In this document: positions 22,099-50,151 of the stretch, in pieces
Position numbering within the stretch: position 1 is the first letter of the stretch
How the letters are laid out: each line of letters begins with the position of its first letter
Assembly (NCBI RefSeq): GCF_030704305.1
Contig: NZ_CP131935.1
Location: forward strand, 992,001-1,056,000
Length of the DNA stretch: 64,000 nt
Direction: 5' to 3'
From: Massilia sp. R2A-15
Lineage (GTDB): Bacteria; Pseudomonadota; Gammaproteobacteria; Burkholderiales; Burkholderiaceae_D
Program-made: the position numbers and the translations under genes
The notes under the pieces: generated by a model
Told to the model about the DNA's origin: nothing
The model's input: only the letters and a program-made list of their open reading frames with translations
Databases searched by the model: none

Positions 22099-22188
22099 GG
22101 AAGCGTGGCCGAGCGGTTGAAGGCACCAGTCTTGAAAACTGGCGACGGGGGAACCTGTTCGTGAGTTCGAATCTCACCGCTTCCGCCA
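22099..22188 (+). tRNA. tRNA-Ser (anticodon TGA)
   Basis: Class II tRNA of 90 nt including an encoded CCA. Acceptor GGAAGCG pairs with CGCTTCC, the anticodon loop CTTGAAA carries TGA, there is a long variable arm (CGACGGGGGAACCTGTTCG), and the T-loop is TTCGAAT. Its 3' end is the attachment-like sequence of the adjacent low-GC island. Confidence 0.96.
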
Positions 22189-22226: not shown

Positions 22227-22338
22227 TGGCGGAAGCGAGTGAGCCACCTGCGTGGCTCACGGGTGAGATTCGAAGGCCATCCGCGTACTCGCGGTGGAGC
22301 GGCCTGCCGAAGGTAGGCGAATCTCACCGCTTCCGCCA
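22227..22338. repeat. Inverted and direct copies of the tRNA-Ser 3' end (attachment-site-like)
   Basis: Bases 22318-22338 repeat exactly the last 21 bases of the tRNA gene (22168-22188). Bases 22227-22237 plus 22263-22272 are the same sequence inverted, interrupted by a perfect 9-bp hairpin (GTGAGCCAC/GTGGCTCAC). Together they form a large foldback. Duplication of a tRNA 3' end is the usual mark of site-specific integration. No integrase gene is present nearby. Confidence 0.75.
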
Positions 22339-22434: not shown

Positions 22435-24180
22435 TCAAACCTGCTCGATGATGCTGGCCCTGGGGCCTCTCAGCGTGGCCGTCGGTGTAGGCTCCCATGG
22501 CCGCAGTCCCTGATCTTTGGAGAGACGGATGCGGTGCATCTTCATCGCATCGATGATATCCGCCGGCGCCGGGTGTTCTATCAGGAGGGGCAGAGTTTGT
22601 GCGGCTTCAAGATAAAAGCAATGTTTGGAGGTTTGACCGTCGGCTAAGAATGCGTCTTCCCACCAGTTGGTGATGTAATCACTCGCGCGCTCAAGTGCAC
22701 CCTGCGTAATGAGGCGGTTCGACTTTTGATTGTTGATTTGTTTTGACGCGGGCATCAGGTTCCATGCGTCGCCACAAGGCCAGGCTGCAAACGGAAAGCA
22801 GTGGTCAATATCGAAGTCGTCACGCAATCGCTGGCCGGACCACACGCAGTAGACAGCCTTCCCCGCCGAACGGAGACGCACAACGGCTTCGCGCGCGATT
22901 CGGGTGTCGCGCTCAGGATCTGACCATGCCAACTTTGTTTGGGCTAGTTGACGTGCGTTCGGCTGGCCGCTCCCCGCATAGACTTCTATCAGCCTGACCC
23001 ACTCAGATATGAGGACTGGTTCAATCCAAACGTTGTAGCGAGTGAGGGCCAGCCAGATCTGGGGAGGCACGCGTAGTTCGCCGAAGCTCCAGAGGAAGGG
23101 CGCGTCAATCGAGAGCGGCGATGGGGTAGTGGTGCGTCGGCCAGATTGAATTTCGAATATGGGCTGGTCACTCGCCGGCCAGCGCAAATAGGTGGCCGGC
23201 ATCCGGCGAATTAATTGCGAGATCTCGGAAAGACTGCGTTGGAGATGCTTCGCCGTGTCGCCACTGAAGGTTGCCCCCACACGCAGTTCGAAGGGATTGA
23301 TGATCCGTAGGGCGTTGAAGCTGTCCGTGACAAAGCCAGGTCGTGTGCCTAAGCGCGTACGCGGCATCTGCGGCAGATCGCTTTCGATCAGGGGCTTGTA
23401 CATGCGCATCCAGAACAGTGCGACCATGCCCATGGGGACGGCGACGAAATCGGATTCGTGGCGTGCCGTACCGTTCGCAGTGTCCGCGATCCGAGCCAGT
23501 ATGCGTAATAGGGCGATTTTATATGTGGAAGATTTGTCGTCCACCAGAACCAGGTTGCGGAGAAGAGGCAAGGCGCCGAGTCCGTCGTCAGGCAGCCCAA
23601 GGACCGCAGTGGTCCAAGAAATGCCGACGCGGCCCAATCGATCGGCGCTTTCGCTCGCGTGAACCACTCTGAGTCCGAACTGCTGCGAGAGTGACGATAG
23701 TTCCTGCAGCGAGACTTCGTGCATCTCGCGTTCGCGATCAGGCGCACCAAGTCTGAGAGTGATGGCAATGCGGCCGCCAGGCGCCAACATCGTGGCGAGC
23801 TTTCTCAGGGCTCGCGCACGAGACGCCGGAGGAATGTGCATCCATACCGCGGACAGGAGAATGAGGTCGAAGGTCAGTCCAAGGCGCCGTACCTGGGAGA
23901 GCTCGGGAAGGCTGTCAGACAACCAGTGAATTTGGGATGACGGGTGCAACGTCCGTCCCCTTTGCAGCATTGCGTCGGACGGTTCGACCGCAACGACATC
24001 GTATCCATTGGCCGCAAACCAGGCAGCGTCGCGACCGGAGCCGGCGCCAATGTCCAGAATAGTGGCGCCAGGCTGGGGCAGCAGATTGAGTAGCGCCGCA
24101 TGCACGTCCTCGAACGCCAACGATTCATATTGAGTCACCAGTGCTGGTGCGTTCTGATCGTAGTAGGGGATCGGCGTCAT
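22435..24180 (-). CDS. Fusion of SAM-dependent methyltransferase and HNH nuclease
   Basis: 581 residues from the ATG at 24180 (MTPIPYYDQNAPALVTQYES); longer in-frame extensions exist and no strong ribosome site decides. The N-terminal ~200 residues are a class I methyltransferase with motif I ILDIGAGSGRDAAWFAANG, VVAVEPSDAM, and motif IV-like FDLILLSAVWMHIP. A middle region without recognised domain follows. The C-terminal third contains an HNH-type motif: CVWSGQRL, DIDHCFPFAAW and WNLMPASKQINNQKSNRL (about residues 440-495). Such a fusion fits a self-contained nucleic-acid modification and cleavage defence protein. Composition is lower in GC than the flanks; it lies in the tRNA-Ser island, divergent from the membrane operon. 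Confidence 0.8.
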   Translation of the reverse strand: MTPIPYYDQNAPALVTQYESLAFEDVHAALLNLLPQPGATILDIGAGSGRDAAWFAANGYDVVAVEPSDAMLQRGRTLHPSSQIHWLSDSLPELSQVRRLGLTFDLILLSAVWMHIPPASRARALRKLATMLAPGGRIAITLRLGAPDREREMHEVSLQELSSLSQQFGLRVVHASESADRLGRVGISWTTAVLGLPDDGLGALPLLRNLVLVDDKSSTYKIALLRILARIADTANGTARHESDFVAVPMGMVALFWMRMYKPLIESDLPQMPRTRLGTRPGFVTDSFNALRIINPFELRVGATFSGDTAKHLQRSLSEISQLIRRMPATYLRWPASDQPIFEIQSGRRTTTPSPLSIDAPFLWSFGELRVPPQIWLALTRYNVWIEPVLISEWVRLIEVYAGSGQPNARQLAQTKLAWSDPERDTRIAREAVVRLRSAGKAVYCVWSGQRLRDDFDIDHCFPFAAWPCGDAWNLMPASKQINNQKSNRLITQGALERASDYITNWWEDAFLADGQTSKHCFYLEAAQTLPLLIEHPAPADIIDAMKMHRIRLSKDQGLRPWEPTPTATLRGPRASIIEQV

Positions 24181-24206
24181 TCGACTATGTTGCCATTTTT
24201 CTGTCT

Positions 24207-24452
24207 TTATTGAAACATTCGTTTCGCTATCTGGTGCAACAGCACGCGGATGTCGGTGATCGGCGCCGGCTTCACGCACGATGCTACATCGCTCTCAGCC
24301 GGGAAAAGCGTTACATGATTCTGTCCCGAGCACGCAAATTCATCCCACGCGGCTTTGACAGTATCAAGTAAAAGCAGAGTCGCCAACGTAATGCGGGATA
24401 GGCTGGCGCCGGAGAACGTGCTCCGCGCAAGGCTAACTTTAATTGGACGCAT
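24207..24452 (-). CDS. Possible small protein upstream of the methyltransferase-HNH gene
   Basis: 81 codons (MRPIKVSLARSTFSGASLSR...), ending 27 bases before the methyltransferase-HNH start and on the same strand. I recognise no family, and no ribosome site stands out. It could be a real small partner, part of a leader, or a chance frame. Confidence 0.25.
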   Translation of the reverse strand: MRPIKVSLARSTFSGASLSRITLATLLLLDTVKAAWDEFACSGQNHVTLFPAESDVASCVKPAPITDIRVLLHQIAKRMFQ

Positions 24453-25092: not shown

Positions 25093-26565
25093 ATGCCTAC
25101 CTACACGAATTATGCCGGCGAACTTTCCACCGAGCTCGATGCCTACCGAAAACGCGGCGAAAAGGAGGCGGCTCACCATAGACCGCCTGGTGACGCGTTA
25201 CAGATGGACCAGAATGAGACGACGCTGCAAGCGGAGGCGGAAAAATGGATCGGGTCTGAACAGCGATTATTCGATGCAGTGTTGACGGAATCCTCTCGCG
25301 CGATTGCGGAATCGGGGCAAAAAGTGGTAGAGCTCCAAGGTCGGGCAGATCAGCTACTACTTGACACAACACTATTGGCGACAATCGAGGCCGACATGTC
25401 GGCAGAGCGGGACGCATTAGTATTGTTGACCGAAAATCGAATGAAAACGGAAGTGGACTGGCGCCACCTTCGTGCAATTAATGGTATCACAATTCAAGCC
25501 AGTTATCCGGAGAGTGTGATATGGCATCTGGCCTTAATTTTCGCTCTCGCTCTTATTGAAACCATTGTTAATGCATTTTTCTACGAAAATTCTCAAGGGT
25601 TATTGGGGGGATTTACTGTAGCGCTGGGCGTTTCATTTATTAATATGGTAGGCGCGTTGATCTTGGGTTATGGTTTTCGATATAAAAATCTATCAAAGAT
25701 CGATTATCGGTTTGTGGGTTACGGATGTTTAATTGCTTTTCTGGTTCTGGCTATCTATTGCAACGCACTATTTGCGGCGTTTCGTTCAGAATATCAATTA
25801 ATATTGGATCCGTCTGATGGAATTCAGATGAGGCACGGGTTTGCAATTGCCGCTGCCGAAGCAAAAAAGATATTCTATTTGGGAATGGGCTTTTCTGATT
25901 TAACAAGTTTTGTTCTGTTCGGGCTTGGTTTAGTTTTAAGTTTTTTGGCGTTTTATAAAGGCTATACACTGGACGATAAATTTCCAGGATACGGTGCGCT
26001 GGATCGAACGCGCAAGGAGGCGTTAAAATCCGAAGCCGTGCAACAAGAGATGCTTCGACAAAAAATAAAAGAATATTTGCACCACAGAAAAGCAGAAACG
26101 CAAGCCATTCTTCACGAACCGGCGCAGATTATTAATCTCGCGTCGCGTCGAATATCAGATTTGCAGATCGCCAAATCTACATTGATTAATCAAGCGCAGG
26201 CCATTCAACGAGATTTTGCACTGGTTTTAAGCACGTATCGCAACGCAAATGCATCGATCCGCGCGACAGCTGTGCCGGGTTATTTTAAAATCATCCCGGA
26301 TTTGATTGCGAAAATTGATGTCTCTCCGGCCACACCGTTCCTCGATCAACTCGCACGGCTTCAGACGGATGTCAAAATCTGGCGTGACGAAAATCAAGAC
26401 GCGTTAAATCTAAAATTGCAGGCGTTACAGAGCGATTCGGCAAAAATCTTGAGTTTTACATTTTCGGCTTTCTTGCGTGACGTGGAGAACGAAGCCAAGG
26501 AACGAATCAACCGAGCAGTGGCAACTGTTCATCGCGACAATCTGGAAATGACGACCAATGCTTAG
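25093..26565 (+). CDS. Four-TM membrane protein with flanking helical domains (first gene of the stator-like operon)
   Basis: 490 residues, no recognised family. The N-terminal ~135 residues are charged and helical. Four predicted membrane helices lie near 142-164 (VIWHLALIFALALIETIVNA), 170-194, 207-230 and 264-291. The C-terminal ~190 residues are predominantly helical, with coiled-coil character (QEMLRQKIKEYLHHRKAETQ). The last 8 bases overlap the next gene, implying translational coupling. Codon use and AT content differ from the chromosome. Given the company of MotA/MotB-like proteins, it may be a scaffold or sensor in the same membrane complex; that is inference. Confidence 0.8.
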   Translation: MPTYTNYAGELSTELDAYRKRGEKEAAHHRPPGDALQMDQNETTLQAEAEKWIGSEQRLFDAVLTESSRAIAESGQKVVELQGRADQLLLDTTLLATIEADMSAERDALVLLTENRMKTEVDWRHLRAINGITIQASYPESVIWHLALIFALALIETIVNAFFYENSQGLLGGFTVALGVSFINMVGALILGYGFRYKNLSKIDYRFVGYGCLIAFLVLAIYCNALFAAFRSEYQLILDPSDGIQMRHGFAIAAAEAKKIFYLGMGFSDLTSFVLFGLGLVLSFLAFYKGYTLDDKFPGYGALDRTRKEALKSEAVQQEMLRQKIKEYLHHRKAETQAILHEPAQIINLASRRISDLQIAKSTLINQAQAIQRDFALVLSTYRNANASIRATAVPGYFKIIPDLIAKIDVSPATPFLDQLARLQTDVKIWRDENQDALNLKLQALQSDSAKILSFTFSAFLRDVENEAKERINRAVATVHRDNLEMTTNA

Positions 26566-27373
26566 CCGAAAAGATAAGAAAGGGATTTGGCTGATCGCTG
26601 CGGTCTCTGCAATTTTCATTGTCATTTTTGCGGTAAAAATTGCTTTCGATAAGCACGCAAAGCCGGGGGGCGACAATTGTGTGGGTACGCCGGTAGGAAA
26701 TACAGTGATTGTTCTGGATTATTCAGAAGAGATACCTGAGCAGACAAAGAGTGAAATTGCCGCACGTGCGATGGCTCGGATAATAGGGGAAGTAAAGGTC
26801 AATGAACGTGTTTCGATCTTTACTGTTTCGGATGATTCGCAGCGCGCACTGAGACCCGTACTCTCGGTTTGCAAACCGCCTAATGATGGAAATAGAATGG
26901 TCGAGGGAATCCAAACAATTCAGAAGCGGTTCCACGCAACTTTTGAAAAGCCTCTCCGAGAGATATTGCAAAAGAACCCAGCCGAAAGCAAAGAATCTCC
27001 AATTGCGCAGACGCTAACTGATATTGCCCTCAGTGAATATTTAGCAGGCGATCGAAGCACTTTATTAATCTTTTCAGATATGTTGGAAAATACGGAGAAG
27101 TTCACGATGTATGGTTGCGAATCATCGGCAAATATCATAGATCGTTACCGCCTATCGCGTCACGGTGCCATGGAACGGCCGAAGTTTTCAAATGCGCGAA
27201 TCGATATTAACCTGATCCCAAGGCTCGGGCAAACTGCGGGAACGTTAAAATGCAGAGATAAATTCTGGCCATGGTTTTTTGGTGACAATCCTGGCGCTGA
27301 CGCGGCACTTTCAATCCGTTACCTTCCCGGCGGAGCCGGCCACGCTCAGCTTATTCCTAGGCATTCCAAATGA
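26558..27373 (+). CDS. Membrane-anchored vWA-like protein
   Basis: 271 residues. A single N-terminal membrane helix (about residues 10-30) precedes a domain resembling von Willebrand factor A. A strand ends in IVLDYSEE (Asp54-x-Ser56 as the MIDAS start), a Ser/Thr region follows (SPIAQTLTDIA, around 147-154), and then strand TLLIFSDMLENTE (Asp174). Spacing and order match metal-dependent adhesion sites, although the canonical DxSxS is DYSEE here. The domain would face the periplasm if the helix is a start-anchor. It overlaps both neighbours (ATG inside the upstream gene; ATGA with the downstream one). Its likely role is a protein-interaction module of the complex. Confidence 0.72.
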   Translation: MLSRKDKKGIWLIAAVSAIFIVIFAVKIAFDKHAKPGGDNCVGTPVGNTVIVLDYSEEIPEQTKSEIAARAMARIIGEVKVNERVSIFTVSDDSQRALRPVLSVCKPPNDGNRMVEGIQTIQKRFHATFEKPLREILQKNPAESKESPIAQTLTDIALSEYLAGDRSTLLIFSDMLENTEKFTMYGCESSANIIDRYRLSRHGAMERPKFSNARIDINLIPRLGQTAGTLKCRDKFWPWFFGDNPGADAALSIRYLPGGAGHAQLIPRHSK

Positions 27374-29010
27374 ATCGCAACTATTTCTTAACGCTATTCA
27401 AGTGTATCGTCGTTTCTATTGTTGTGCTTGCTAGTAGCACTTTTTTCCGTCTACCGCCCTGGGTGGCTATGTTGGGCGGTATTCTGCCGTTGGTTTACTA
27501 TCATTTATTATTTTTATGGCCTCAGGCTTCGAAGGGGCTCAGTGGGACGGCGATCGATAGCGTCTATTACTTTGGATTCTTGGTCACGGTGTCGGCTTTG
27601 GGAATTAGCGCGATTTCAATTGCATTTCGAGGGTCCGAGGGAAATTTAAACACGGTTATCTATCAATTCGGAGTGGGATTATTCGCGACTGGTTACGCGG
27701 TGGTAGCCCGTATGCATCTTACTAGCTCTGCATCAATGGTGGATGAGGCTAGTCCAGAAGCTCTCATGGACCGATACGTGAAACGCTCCGTCGAATTGGT
27801 GAGCAATGTCGAAATGGCGTCTAGTCAGCTCGCTGAGTTCTCGAAGGACATTATTAGACGAACCGTAGAGATGACGGAATCAACGAGGAGTTCTTCCGAA
27901 CGAATGATGATGGATGCGGCAAGAGCGTTCGACGCAGAAATGAAAAATACTCTGGCATCGGCTCGGGATAGTCTTGCGGAAATACGTGGACTTGTTTCCG
28001 AAACCTCTTTCGTAGCTGAACGGGAAGAGTTGGCGCGTAGCCTCAAATCGACTTCAGAAGCAACTTCACTCTTGAATGCAGCCCTTACCGATCTGGCATC
28101 AAAGGCGCGGGTGAGCGCACAATCGACTCAGGAATCAGTCGTCGCGACAGATGGGTTTCAGGAGACCGTGCGAACTTTGGCCGCTCAAATTGATGCACTA
28201 GGTGGCGACGATGGAGCCTTTATCAAGTCTGCGGAAACGCTTAAGGAAGCTACGGCTAGCATGTCCGAATGCAACACAACGATGTCTGTCGCCGCAGAGG
28301 GCTTGAGCCAAATGGTCAGCACTGTGAGCGATACCGGGCCGACCTTCAAGCAAATGCGAACGCTTACCAAGAAGGCCACGGAACAGCTTGAAGCGTTAGC
28401 CGAGGCTTCTGGAAGAATTAATACTTCCTTAGACCAGATCGCAAGTGCTGCAGTAGCTTCCGATTCATTAGCCGTTGGGATGTCGAAGGTTACTTCTGCC
28501 ATGGAACCATTAGCATCCGGCTCTAATATTCTTGCGTTACGGTTCACTGAAATAACGAAAATCTCAAGTGAATTTGATAGGAGTATCGGCGATTTGCCTG
28601 CACGCACGGCGCTTCTTCACGACACAGCGAATGAAATCGCGGCGGGCCTTCAACGAATTTTCGAGGTTATTGAGGTAGCTGCCACGCACAGTGAAAGACT
28701 ATCCGAAAATTCCGTGCGGACCGCTAAAACAGTGGAAGGTGCAACAAAACTTCTTGAAACAGCGGATGGATTGCAGAAGTTAATTGAGCATCTTCACAGG
28801 GATTTCCATGGCTTTACTAACTCACTCCAACTCGCCCAAGACGCAATTTTAACATCCTCGACTGGCATAAAAACTGCGATTCATGGATCGACCCTTGCTC
28901 TCGAAGGGGATATCAAACGCTCTGCGGAAGCTGCTTCAATGTTCACTGAAAGGCTTTCGCAGGTCGCACAAAATATCATCGATAGAACTAAACCGGAGCC
29001 GGTCCGATGA
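27370..29010 (+). CDS. MotA/ZorA-like membrane protein with long helical tail
   Basis: 546 residues. Four membrane helices sit in the first 116 residues (about 4-26, 29-50, 63-86, 96-115). The last one (YQFGVGLFATGYAVVARM) resembles TM4 of MotA/TolQ/ExbB-type channel subunits. Residues ~120-546 form a continuous, Ser/Thr/Ala/Glu-rich helical region (DSLAEIRGLVSETSF, KSTSEATSLLNAALTDL), like the long intracellular tail of Zorya ZorA. It overlaps its neighbours by ATGA at both ends. I infer an ion-driven stator subunit paired with the next gene. Overall similarity to ZorA is architectural; sequence homology needs a profile search. Confidence 0.68.
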   Translation: MNRNYFLTLFKCIVVSIVVLASSTFFRLPPWVAMLGGILPLVYYHLLFLWPQASKGLSGTAIDSVYYFGFLVTVSALGISAISIAFRGSEGNLNTVIYQFGVGLFATGYAVVARMHLTSSASMVDEASPEALMDRYVKRSVELVSNVEMASSQLAEFSKDIIRRTVEMTESTRSSSERMMMDAARAFDAEMKNTLASARDSLAEIRGLVSETSFVAEREELARSLKSTSEATSLLNAALTDLASKARVSAQSTQESVVATDGFQETVRTLAAQIDALGGDDGAFIKSAETLKEATASMSECNTTMSVAAEGLSQMVSTVSDTGPTFKQMRTLTKKATEQLEALAEASGRINTSLDQIASAAVASDSLAVGMSKVTSAMEPLASGSNILALRFTEITKISSEFDRSIGDLPARTALLHDTANEIAAGLQRIFEVIEVAATHSERLSENSVRTAKTVEGATKLLETADGLQKLIEHLHRDFHGFTNSLQLAQDAILTSSTGIKTAIHGSTLALEGDIKRSAEAASMFTERLSQVAQNIIDRTKPEPVR

Positions 29011-29687
29011 AAAGGTCTGATGACGTCTTTTTCTTCACTTTAATTGATTTTTTGGTTCAGGTCTTTTTCTTTGGATTGGTTCTATATGTTTTGGGCCAGT
29101 CCACCCAAGCAAACAAAGAGCGTGAACAGAAAGAAGTTGCCGACCAGATAAAGAAGTTGCTTGACGCAACAGGGGTTTCGACAATCACAGAATTGACTGA
29201 TGATTTGACAAATATGGCTCCCATTGACCAGCTTAAGGGAATGGCCGATTTTATTAACCGGAATGGAGGGGTATCTGCGATTAAAAATGCTAACGAAGTA
29301 GTTCGCGACGCCGGCGGGATGCAAAATTTGAAGGCGGGCTTGATGCGCTTAAAAAAATTGGAGGATGGATTAGGGAAGCCGCCTTGCCTTTTCGACGTCG
29401 TGGGGGAAAAGAAGGTGGTTAAACCCCTTGCCACCGTGGTTGCTACTGACACTACAATTGAGTTTCAGAGTGAGGGGGATGAGCTAAGGAAAGTTCTCGA
29501 GCTGCTAAATGTCAGATTTTCGGCTGTCAGAGAGCTTTCACTAAGCGATTTCCGAAGGACCTTTTCTCCCATAATTCAACATAAATCGGATTGTCGTTAC
29601 ACTCTCCGTTTTTTAGAGAGAACTCGAATTGTAGACGCCCGCGATGCAGCGCGGTTTGCTTTTTATTTGAACATTGAGAAGCCATAA
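29007..29687 (+). CDS. MotB/ExbD/ZorB-like single-pass protein
   Basis: 226 residues. A short cytosolic start is followed by one membrane helix (about 8-30). An Asp stands near its beginning (Asp14 in FFFTLIDFLVQVFFF), the hallmark proton-carrying residue position of MotB, ExbD, TolR and ZorB. A charged linker (residues 32-115) follows, then a ~110-residue C-terminal domain with two Cys (KPPCLF, SDCRYTL) that could form a periplasmic disulfide. No clear OmpA peptidoglycan motif is visible by eye. It overlaps the MotA-like gene by ATGA, as stator pairs usually do. Confidence 0.7.
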   Translation: MKRSDDVFFFTLIDFLVQVFFFGLVLYVLGQSTQANKEREQKEVADQIKKLLDATGVSTITELTDDLTNMAPIDQLKGMADFINRNGGVSAIKNANEVVRDAGGMQNLKAGLMRLKKLEDGLGKPPCLFDVVGEKKVVKPLATVVATDTTIEFQSEGDELRKVLELLNVRFSAVRELSLSDFRRTFSPIIQHKSDCRYTLRFLERTRIVDARDAARFAFYLNIEKP

Positions 29688-29899
29688 TGCCCCAATCGAT
29701 CGATCCTAGACTTGCGTCGCTTTGCAACAAGCTTGATGAAATGACGGTTCATATTTCGAAAATTCATCAGAGTAAGGGGGAGGTTGACGCGAAGGAAGCG
29801 AGCAGCGCTCCATTGCGTTCGAGCGTATCAGAACATCAAATGCCCGTTGCAGGGACACTGCGCGAATTTTTCGCAAGACTCCTCCGTGGCAACAGCTAA
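29687..29899 (+). CDS. Small hypothetical protein of the stator-like operon
   Basis: 70 residues (MPQSIDPRLASLCNKLDEMT...). Its ATG overlaps the preceding TAA (TAATG), which supports real translation by coupling. There is no membrane segment. The first half is a likely helix (SLCNKLDEMTVHISKIHQ) and the end is basic (FFARLLRGNS). No family recognised. Confidence 0.55.
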   Translation: MPQSIDPRLASLCNKLDEMTVHISKIHQSKGEVDAKEASSAPLRSSVSEHQMPVAGTLREFFARLLRGNS

Positions 29900-29965
29900 A
29901 AGTAGATGGGATACTGCTATGAATGGATGGGTGTTTTTTTGTTTTTCCTTGGAAGCGACTTTGAA

Positions 29966-30559
29966 ATGGTAATGAAACGCCTCTGTGCTAGCCTTCTTTT
30001 ATTGTTTACACTTCTTCCGGCGCACGGTGGGTCACCACATCCGATAAACGCCCTCGCGTCTGGCATGAAAAACCCAGGTGTTAAGGTTCAGGGGCAAGGC
30101 GTTATCGAGACAGCATTCTCTCCAAATGGAGGAAGTGAGGAATTGGTTGTGAAGGTAATCGATTCCTCTGAAAAAAGGCTTCGTTTGGCTGCCTATTCGT
30201 TCACTTCGCCGGCAATTGTTAGCGCCTTAATTGCTGCCAAGAGGCGGGGAGTCGATGTCCAAGTAGTGGTTGACGAAAAGGGAAATAAAGGTAAGGCGAG
30301 CATCGCGGCGCTCAACCTTCTTGTGAACTCGAATATACCGGCGCGAACTATTTCCGCGTACCCGATTCATCATGACAAATTCATAGTTTGCGACGATAGA
30401 ACGGTGCAAAATGGTAGTTTTAACTATAGTCGTGCGGCCGCTAAGTCTAATAGTGAAAATGTTCTAGTCGTTTGGAATAATTCGCCATTGGCAAATTCCT
30501 TTTTAAGCCACTGGCAGTCGAGGTGGGATAAAGGTACGGATGTGAGATCTACATATTAA
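29966..30559 (+). CDS. Secreted phospholipase-D-family nuclease (Nuc type, single HKD motif)
   Basis: 197 residues from the ATG at 29966, with GGAAG eight bases upstream. The signal peptide MVMKRLCASLLLLFTLLPAH is followed by the PLD fold: VIDSSEKRLRLAAYSFTSPAI, KRRGVDVQVVVDEKGNKG, and one HxK-x4-D motif in IHHDKFIVCDDRTVQNGSFN. Single-motif members such as the plasmid Nuc endonuclease act as dimers on DNA without strong specificity. It lies 66 bases after the small gene in the same orientation, so probably the operon's last gene and, by inference, its periplasmic effector that would cut incoming DNA. Confidence 0.82.
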   Translation: MVMKRLCASLLLLFTLLPAHGGSPHPINALASGMKNPGVKVQGQGVIETAFSPNGGSEELVVKVIDSSEKRLRLAAYSFTSPAIVSALIAAKRRGVDVQVVVDEKGNKGKASIAALNLLVNSNIPARTISAYPIHHDKFIVCDDRTVQNGSFNYSRAAAKSNSENVLVVWNNSPLANSFLSHWQSRWDKGTDVRSTY

Positions 30560-30837
30560 GTCGACTATTCGAGAACGGCTGTCGATGTGTGGACATCTTC
30601 ACTATGAGTTGTAAATATTGACTCATATATTTGTTAAGTATGGCCCTAAACGGCCATAGTCTCTCTTTGCGACAAACATGGGTAGAAAGCTGGGTAGATG
30701 ATTTATGAGGCGCTTTTTTCATAGGAGGATTCTATTGACACCGCTTCCGGCGTCAGCACATCAGTAAGCTCCCCTTCCATCGAGTGGGAAGAAGAGAGGC
30801 GGTTAGCAATTGTTCATGTTTGCCGCCTTTGCTGCCC
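30560..30837. other. Right-hand end of the low-GC island
   Basis: About 280 bases without a gene. A decayed resemblance to the tRNA-Ser 3' end and its flank occurs at 30739-30749 (CACCGCTTCCG), followed by CAGCACATCAGT, which resembles the CAGCATATCGGT after the second att copy at 22338. This could be a degenerate right attachment site. Confidence 0.35.
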
Positions 30838-48762: not shown

Positions 48763-50151
48763 TCAGATCCAGTATTCGGTCAGCCGCGACGCCCATTCCT
48801 TGATGCGGTCGGCGAATGGCCGGTGTCGCCATTCTTCGCGGGTCACTTCCTTCGAGTCGCGCAAATCCTCATTGAAGGCGTTCTCCATGTCCTGCCCGAA
48901 GGCCGGGTCGAGCACGATCACATTCAGCTCGTAGTTGTGAATGAAGCTGCGGCGGTCGATATTGGCCGAGCCGATGGTGGACCACGTGCCGTCGATCACC
49001 GCGGTCTTGGCGTGCAGTACCGCGACCTGCAGGTGGAAGATCTTGACGCCGCCGGCCAGCAGCTGGTCGTAGAACGCGCGGCCGGCGTGCATCACCAGGC
49101 CATGGTCGGTCACGCCGGGCAGCACCAGGCGCACGTCCACGCCGCGCCTGGCGGCGGCCACCAGCGCGTCGACGATCTGCGGATCGGGCACGAAATAGGC
49201 CGAGGTGATGTGGATGGTCTTCTTCGCTTCCTGGATCGCCAGCACCAGCGACTTGTAGATCTCGAAGCCCTTCTCGGGATCGCTGGCGAGCACGCGTACG
49301 ATCTTGTCGCCGGCCGGCGCCAACGGCGGGAAGTAGTTCGCCTCGGGCAGTTCGCCCGCCTCCTGGCGCACCCAGTTGTTGACGAAGGACCACTGCAGCG
49401 CCGATACCGCCGGCCCTTCGATCTTGATGTGGGTGTCGCGCCAGCCGACCTTTTTCTTCTCGGCCGGATTGGGCTTGCGGCGCGAACCGAAGAAGGAGCT
49501 GTTGGCGTAGTCGCTGCTGATGTTGATGCCGCCGGTGAAGGCGACCTTGCCGTCGACGACCATCAGCTTGCGGTGGTCGCGGTTGTTGACCTCCCATTTT
49601 CCCGTGGCCTTGGCCGGGTTGACCGGGTTGAACGCGACCAGCGTGATGCCGGCTTGCTTCATGTGGTCGAAGAAGGCCTGCGGCGTGCCGATGGTGCCGA
49701 CGCTGTCGTACAGCACGTTGACGGTCACGCCCTGGCGGCGCTTTTCGATCAGCAGCTCGGCGAACTCCATGCCGACCGGATCCTGGTCGAAGATGTAGGT
49801 TTCGAGGTTGATGGTCGATTTGGCGTCGCGCGCGGCGGCGATCATTTCCTTCATCGTGGCCGGGCCGTCGATCAGCAAGGTGACCTTGTTGCCGGCGATG
49901 AGGGGCACGCCGGTGGCCGCTTCTTCCTGCACCGCCAGCGCCTTCATGTCGGGCGTCGCGTGCGCCCAGCGCTTGGCCAGCAGGGCGGCGGCCTGCTTCG
50001 ACTGCAGCGTGCCGTTCGGCGTGGCGACGGTCGGCGTGGCCTTCGCGGACGCCGCGCCGCCAGCGCCGACGTCGGGCAGGCTGGCGCACGAGGCTACCGC
50101 CAGGGACAGCACCATCGGGAGCCACCATTTGCCGCTGCGCGTTCTTGTCAT
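48763..50151 (-). CDS. Phospholipase D-family lipoprotein (cardiolipin-synthase-like)
   Basis: 462 residues with a lipoprotein-type signal (LSLAVASC). Two HKD motifs are seen: NRDHRKLMVVDGKVAFTGGI and VLHAKTAVIDGTWSTIGSANID, plus KSTINLETYIFDQDPVGMEF. The architecture is that of ClsB/ClsC-type transphosphatidylases, which make cardiolipin from two phosphatidylglycerols or related lipids. An envelope location is implied by the signal. Its start overlaps the end of the upstream COG4389 gene (ATGA), so the two are coupled. Confidence 0.9.
   Translation of the reverse strand: MTRTRSGKWWLPMVLSLAVASCASLPDVGAGGAASAKATPTVATPNGTLQSKQAAALLAKRWAHATPDMKALAVQEEAATGVPLIAGNKVTLLIDGPATMKEMIAAARDAKSTINLETYIFDQDPVGMEFAELLIEKRRQGVTVNVLYDSVGTIGTPQAFFDHMKQAGITLVAFNPVNPAKATGKWEVNNRDHRKLMVVDGKVAFTGGINISSDYANSSFFGSRRKPNPAEKKKVGWRDTHIKIEGPAVSALQWSFVNNWVRQEAGELPEANYFPPLAPAGDKIVRVLASDPEKGFEIYKSLVLAIQEAKKTIHITSAYFVPDPQIVDALVAAARRGVDVRLVLPGVTDHGLVMHAGRAFYDQLLAGGVKIFHLQVAVLHAKTAVIDGTWSTIGSANIDRRSFIHNYELNVIVLDPAFGQDMENAFNEDLRDSKEVTREEWRHRPFADRIKEWASRLTEYWI

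Follow-up and report, generated by a model that had tools for sequence, protein, structure and literature searches.

Introduction

The described systems closest to the operon reported here are Zorya and SNIPE. In Zorya, a two-gene motor of 5:2 layout, ZorAB, is paired with cytosolic effectors, ZorC and ZorD in type I or ZorE in type II. Structures and mutants of ZorAB have been published (PMC11890865; statements attributed to this and the other papers cited refer to excerpts of them). Both Zorya and SNIPE act at the DNA injection site (PMC12904381, PMC13190303), and the exact mechanism of Zorya is said to remain unclear (PMC13190303). SNIPE, also named PD-Lambda-1, combines DUF4041 with a GIY-YIG domain. 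It is a single protein whose nuclease is cytoplasmic and membrane-linked, acts on DNA during injection, and has no motor (PMC13190303). We analyzed a 64,000-nucleotide stretch of the Massilia sp. R2A-15 genome (contig NZ_CP131935.1, positions 992,001 to 1,056,000; hereafter the window), in which six genes, A to F, at positions 25093-30559 encode an apparent membrane motor and a secreted nuclease.

Results

A putative motor operon with a secreted nuclease

The original prediction was a run of six genes encoding a four-transmembrane (TM) protein, a single-TM von Willebrand factor A (vWA)-like protein, a four-TM protein with a long helical tail, a single-TM protein with an Asp early in its membrane helix, a small protein, and a signal-peptide Nuc-type phospholipase D (PLD) protein. 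We re-derived the frames, which overlap or abut on the + strand, and these descriptions agree with what we found. A (25093-26565, 490 aa) has four TM segments by hydropathy, with helical N- and C-terminal parts that are presumably both cytosolic because the number of TM segments is even. It belongs to an undescribed family with no match in Pfam, NCBIfam or PADLOC and only insignificant ones in PHROGs. B (26558-27373) overlaps A by 8 nt, has one TM segment by hydropathy and is predicted to be periplasmic. Its match to VWA_2 (E 0.0015) is under the Pfam cut-off, and its four Cys are invariant in a 5-sequence alignment. C (27370-29010) overlaps B by 4 nt and resembles the MotA/ZorA/TolQ subunits. 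Hydropathy gives it three TM segments, while its AlphaFold2 model (mean predicted local distance difference test score 64.5) has four helices within residues 5-124, followed by an all-helical tail of ~420 residues. D (29007-29687), a MotB/ZorB-like stator subunit, overlaps C by 4 nt; beyond its single TM helix (by hydropathy) lies a domain in which Cys127 and Cys196 are invariant. E (29687-29899) overlaps D by 1 nt and is a 70-aa soluble protein, with no TM segment by hydropathy. The long form of F (29906-30559) begins 6 nt past the end of E, and a start at the internal ATG 29966 gives a cleaner signal-peptide-like N terminus by hydropathy. F is a secreted PLD nuclease of the Nuc/NucT type, matching PLDc_2 (E 1.1e-23), PHROG_12711 (E 4.1e-34) and, below the equivalog cut-off, NCBIfam NucT (E 4.2e-13). 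Its only HKD motif maps to residue 156, counted in the long form. Another PLD-like frame in the window lies at 48763-50151 on the - strand (E 7e-9 to the F profile).

In D, Asp14 of the TM helix is invariant in 55/55 aligned sequences, window D included; these are 55 of the 120 sequences listed among 184 homologues. A wider comparison, in which the residue was placed by eye, found an acidic residue early in the helix in all 16 proteins (Asp in 5, Glu in 11). The 11 with Glu in place of Asp are relatives outside the subfamily of window D. In C, Thr73 and Thr107 (window numbering) are invariant in the 18 proteins compared and may form part of a ring. A ring of Ser/Thr residues surrounds the stator aspartate in ZorAB and MotAB (PMC11890865). 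C and D resemble the subunit pair of a MotAB/ZorAB-type motor. The ZorA/ZorB (MotA/MotB) layout proposed earlier stands for the two-subunit arrangement, the D Asp and the two C Thr. It does not extend to the OmpA domain of ZorB, since window D has no OmpA or ZorB match in Pfam or PADLOC. In a Rhizobium johnstonii plasmid (L040, 10251-11454), the C gene shows up as two overlapping frames.

The A-B-C-D core is conserved as a unit

Homologues number 184 for D (E <= 0.001), 151 for C and 157 for A, with 120 listed for each, and are mostly unnamed or hypothetical. The order A-B-C-D is seen again in Burkholderiales and in Alphaproteobacteria, both on chromosomes and on plasmids; it is shared by Cupriavidus necator A5-1 (L004) and by G018, a genome under the name Noviherbaspirillum (L005). 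Among contigs of at least 5 kb that carry D, the window's own genome excluded, 41/65 are also among the listed C or A contigs, where 0.47 would be expected on average by chance (maximum 4; contigs matched by size, with sizes jittered by 3%). Co-occurrence of all six genes in other genomes had been put forward as a check. A-B-C-D do recur as a unit with a nuclease, but the nuclease is exchangeable and a relative of E was seen only in the Cupriavidus locus. The conserved set is A-B-C-D plus an exchangeable nuclease.

The core is patchily distributed. C was found in 3/148 relatives. The D profile detected 4/392 genomes of the family, 2/399 of the order (one a weak partial match), 1/369 of the class (the window's own), and 1/74 and 1/15 in two genera. 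Across the phylum, the A profile matched 12/398 genomes: the window's own, one with a weak match, and 10 others in which stretches of sequence were read. In genome G082, a B-C-D set is accompanied, ~7 kb off and on the opposite strand, by a second and divergent A-B-C-D set, after which comes an SNase gene. The D protein of this second set matches the window D profile over the periplasmic part (E 3e-5). Its C and A have relatives in 24 plasmid records each, with an identical genus tally (Rhizobium, Sinorhizobium, Paracoccus, Microvirga and Tistrella); 11 of the 24 records are typed conjugative. Profile comparison between the window and alphaproteobacterial lineages shows that A (E 8.7e-41), B (E 1.8e-18) and, over the membrane part, C (E 3.3e-14) are homologous; for D it gave no match.

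The putative motor genes are often accompanied by a nuclease of varying fold

We compared 29 A-B-C loci: the window, L004, L005, L018, 18 plasmid loci (L023-L040, read from 18 of the 24 matching records) and L053-L059. Many are close relatives (e.g. L025, L033, L034, L036, L037 and L040; L053 and L054), and the 29 are therefore not independent cases. The loci were scanned with SNase, Endonuclease_NS, PLD and Excalibur profiles seeded from them. An intact nuclease lies within 2.3 kb or is fused in 21/29, and a remnant is present in one. The fold differs by locus, with PLD in the window, SNase in most and Endonuclease_NS in one, L005, where the gene is 2.2 kb downstream of D, past an insertion sequence and an Excalibur gene. 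SNase genes occur downstream of the operon in L004 and L018, intact in 10 of the 18 plasmid loci (with a short remnant in L034), and in L053, L054, L055, L056 and L059; the L054 copy is 1.2 kb off, past a DUF4236 gene. Their placement varies: upstream on the same strand (L023, L032, L035, L055, L056), downstream on the same strand (L004, L018, L024, L029, L059), or downstream on the opposite strand (L025, L028, L033, L036, L040, L053, L054).

Searched over their whole length, 17 of the 18 plasmids have between 0 and 3 SNases each. In 9/17 the operon has an SNase no more than 1.5 kb away, versus 0.1 expected under uniform placement, a comparison in which the limit was picked after the loci had been seen and the records are related. 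One Paracoccus plasmid (L038) has three SNases, none close to the operon, and an SNase search of the window's own genome, G018 and G645 found none. The DGDT/DADT and R-x-x-G-[IV]-D-x-P-E stretches are kept in all 17 SNases checked. A simple pattern picked up the third motif, an arginine in staphylococcal nuclease, in 9/17 and did not locate it in 8.

Two stator subunits are fused to nucleases

In two loci the nuclease is part of D itself. The L057 protein (588 aa, from a one-contig genome) consists of a TM helix, an OmpA domain (307-417, E 3.3e-6) and an SNase domain (474-576, E 2.3e-13). The L058 protein (601 aa) has a TM helix, an OmpA domain (304-418, E 1.7e-6) and a GmrSD_C domain (481-581, E 2.3e-11); it matches HNH_4 at only 0.021, and the fused nuclease is an HNH of the GmrSD type. 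In their OmpA parts, the two proteins match ZorB models at E ~1e-27, as does the L026 D protein; those of L053, L055, L031 and L059 have no ZorB match at 0.001. The peptidoglycan-binding domain of ZorB is periplasmic (PMC11890865). By homology to ZorB, the fused nucleases should be periplasmic, because they follow a ZorB-like OmpA domain. Each fusion is known from one genome, and 189 genomes of the fusion-bearing family gave no further A gene. Two different nuclease folds are fused to the same subunit in the same place, and nothing argues more strongly that the secreted nucleases encoded next to the operon act together with the motor.

Comparison with described systems

The operon shares with Zorya the two-gene layout of a 5:2 motor, the long helical tail on C, the acidic residue in the D helix, a nuclease effector and, in its alphaproteobacterial relatives, OmpA on the stator subunit. 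It differs in having two more conserved core genes, A and the vWA gene B, and a nuclease that is secreted or fused on the periplasmic side. In addition, window D has no OmpA domain, and Glu replaces Asp in the 11 relatives mentioned above. The contrast drawn earlier with the Zorya effectors holds: in PADLOC, neither the six window proteins nor the product of a divergent methyltransferase/HNH-like gene matched ZorC, ZorD or ZorE, even with E allowed up to 1. Lacking both the OmpA domain and ZorC/D/E, the window set was rejected as a Zorya member.

Like SNIPE, the operon would provide a nuclease linked to the membrane, and it encodes a putative motor, which SNIPE lacks. It also resembles the vWA force transducers encoded beside TolQ(R)-like motors, in which a single-TM vWA protein is encoded with a motor (PMC12204202). 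Here, a separate stator subunit and a nuclease partner are present. The transducers are marked by an SHLS motif or by a transpore helix with Asp; the sequence of B contains neither SHLS nor, within its TM helix (12-30), any acidic residue. F has the fold and HKD motif of Nuc/NucT-type PLD nucleases and of DISARM DrmC, whose models it matches at 4.9e-12, but F is secreted. DISARM, which combines DrmC with DrmA/DrmB and a methylase, was rejected, as PADLOC found no DrmA or DrmB among the same seven proteins.

In Pfam, PADLOC, NCBIfam and PHROGs, nothing above a curated cut-off or with a convincing E-value was found for A, C or D, and PADLOC showed no system of such composition. Among the full-text matches listed in our literature search, none concerned an operon that combines a motor, a vWA protein and a periplasmic nuclease, which does not prove absence from print. 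We regard A and B as two unnamed families, and A-B-C-D with its nuclease as a candidate motor-based defence that is not a member of Zorya.

Genomic context

The operon lies in a low-GC island near tRNA-Ser, as had been noted earlier: GC over 25-31 kb is 0.45-0.50, compared with ~0.65 in most of the window. The tRNA-Ser(TGA) gene (22099-22188, + strand), 2.9 kb from the operon, marks the left edge of the island, and homology to 3/4 same-genus genomes breaks off at its 3′ end. This 3′ end (22168-22188) has a perfect 21-nt repeat 150 bp downstream (22318-22338) and an imperfect copy at 30739-30765, just past F; these repeats are possibly att-like scars from island insertion. A methyltransferase/HNH-like gene (22435-24279, - strand) is divergent from the operon. 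Its methyltransferase part alone matches PADLOC mad2 (E 1.3e-17). The gene had been noted earlier; the HNH_4 score of its C-terminal part is below the Pfam cut-off.

The neighbours of related operons were scanned in part, and known defence genes were found. In S. fredii NXT3, SNIPE (PD-Lambda-1, E 5.8e-170) is encoded 1.2 kb past the operon. The G082 island contains a JukB-like gene (2.1e-15), and a type II methyltransferase (8.2e-104) is encoded close to the L056 operon. Neighbours of GHKL, CHAT, zincin and PIN-like type had no match in this partial, non-systematic scan. The island of L006/L019 (G082 contig C4) contains two motor sets, a Tubulin_2 protein with a GYF_2 domain, the JukB-like protein, and Excalibur and Endonuclease_NS genes. 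Upstream of the S. fredii operon (L028, 1-1238), another hypothetical gene and an OmpA-family gene overlap in a similar way and may belong to a second set.

Outside the 29 loci, L006 has B-C-D with an Excalibur gene and L013 has B-C-D alone; in both, B is extended at its N terminus by a segment resembling a zinc ribbon (L006 8200-9384, L013 4822-5874). L060-L062 are A-B pairs without C-D. Two of these pairs are near tat-like genes, and one adjoins a gene for a TraG/TraD-type coupling protein.

Discussion

The sequences reveal an operon, its conservation, motor-subunit signatures, nuclease swapping and nuclease-stator fusion. Of the explanations considered, defence against incoming DNA accounts for the data best. 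Defence is favoured because of the tRNA-linked low-GC island, the patchy spread, the carriage on plasmids, the exchange of nucleases and the defence genes nearby. We consider it probable that the operon encodes a periplasmic counterpart of Zorya, an inner-membrane A-B-C-D motor with a periplasmic nuclease that cuts incoming DNA. A C pentamer and a D dimer would form a 5:2 rotary motor driven by protons or sodium. D would reach into the periplasm, where its alphaproteobacterial relatives carry an OmpA-type domain that probably binds peptidoglycan. B may act in the periplasm as an adaptor, sensor or force transducer, and A may be a membrane partner in the machine. The machine would recruit or carry a periplasmic nuclease, F in the window and SNase, Endonuclease_NS or HNH elsewhere. 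An invader that disturbs the envelope could engage the motor, and the engaged motor would bring the nuclease onto DNA crossing the periplasm, which would be cut before or during entry. Cleavage of phage or plasmid DNA would thereby protect the cell; phage defence itself, as originally suggested, stays a proposal. Two observations weigh against this reading: none of the four sought nuclease families was found in 7/29 A-B-C loci (L026, L027, L030, L031, L037, L038, L039), and loci with only B-C-D or only A-B exist.

Other functions would account for parts of the data. The motor could drive binding or import of environmental DNA, with the periplasmic nuclease trimming it for transformation or degrading it for nutrients. 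Secreted nucleases do serve DNA scavenging, and the two A-B pairs adjoining tat-like genes suggest that A-B is not everywhere tied to defence genes. Such a function is unlikely, however, given the patchy presence of the core and nucleases that are exchanged and fused while the core is otherwise fixed; the annotated tables, which were not searched systematically for competence or phosphate-uptake genes, showed no conspicuous ones. Slightly less likely still is entry exclusion, in which the plasmid- or island-borne operon would act on rival conjugative DNA and not on phages. The plasmid records with C and A relatives, nearly half of them typed conjugative, and the A-B pair beside the coupling protein are in line with it. 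Chromosomes or large genome contigs also carry relatives (L004, L005, L055, L057), however, and naked conjugative DNA is not known from the periplasm.

The seven loci lacking the sought nucleases are in line with a motor for envelope maintenance or motility (Tol, Agl or T9SS-like) that merely neighbours a nuclease gene. vWA proteins beside TolQ-like motors of unknown function have been described (PMC12204202). This seems improbable, as it leaves unexplained a stator subunit fused to two different nucleases and a nuclease adjacency repeated in differing orientations.

The periplasmic defence reading can be taken a step further. It is conceivable, though we would put it short of probable, that the operon represents a class of immune machine not described before, with a peptidoglycan-anchored motor that is powered by the proton motive force and swings its periplasmic nuclease onto DNA still outside the cytoplasm. 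Compartment alone would then tell self from non-self. Any nuclease fold would therefore suffice, which would explain the swapping among PLD, SNase, Endonuclease_NS and HNH.

The structure of the Zorya motor has been solved, and the link between motor rotation and nuclease action is open. Two genomes encode a stator with its own nuclease on the putative periplasmic side, which makes motor-nuclease coupling testable in one fused protein. If the proposal is true, the unnamed families A and B would gain a function, and immunity would be conferred by compartment: only foreign DNA would ever be in the periplasm, and no sequence or modification marks would be needed.
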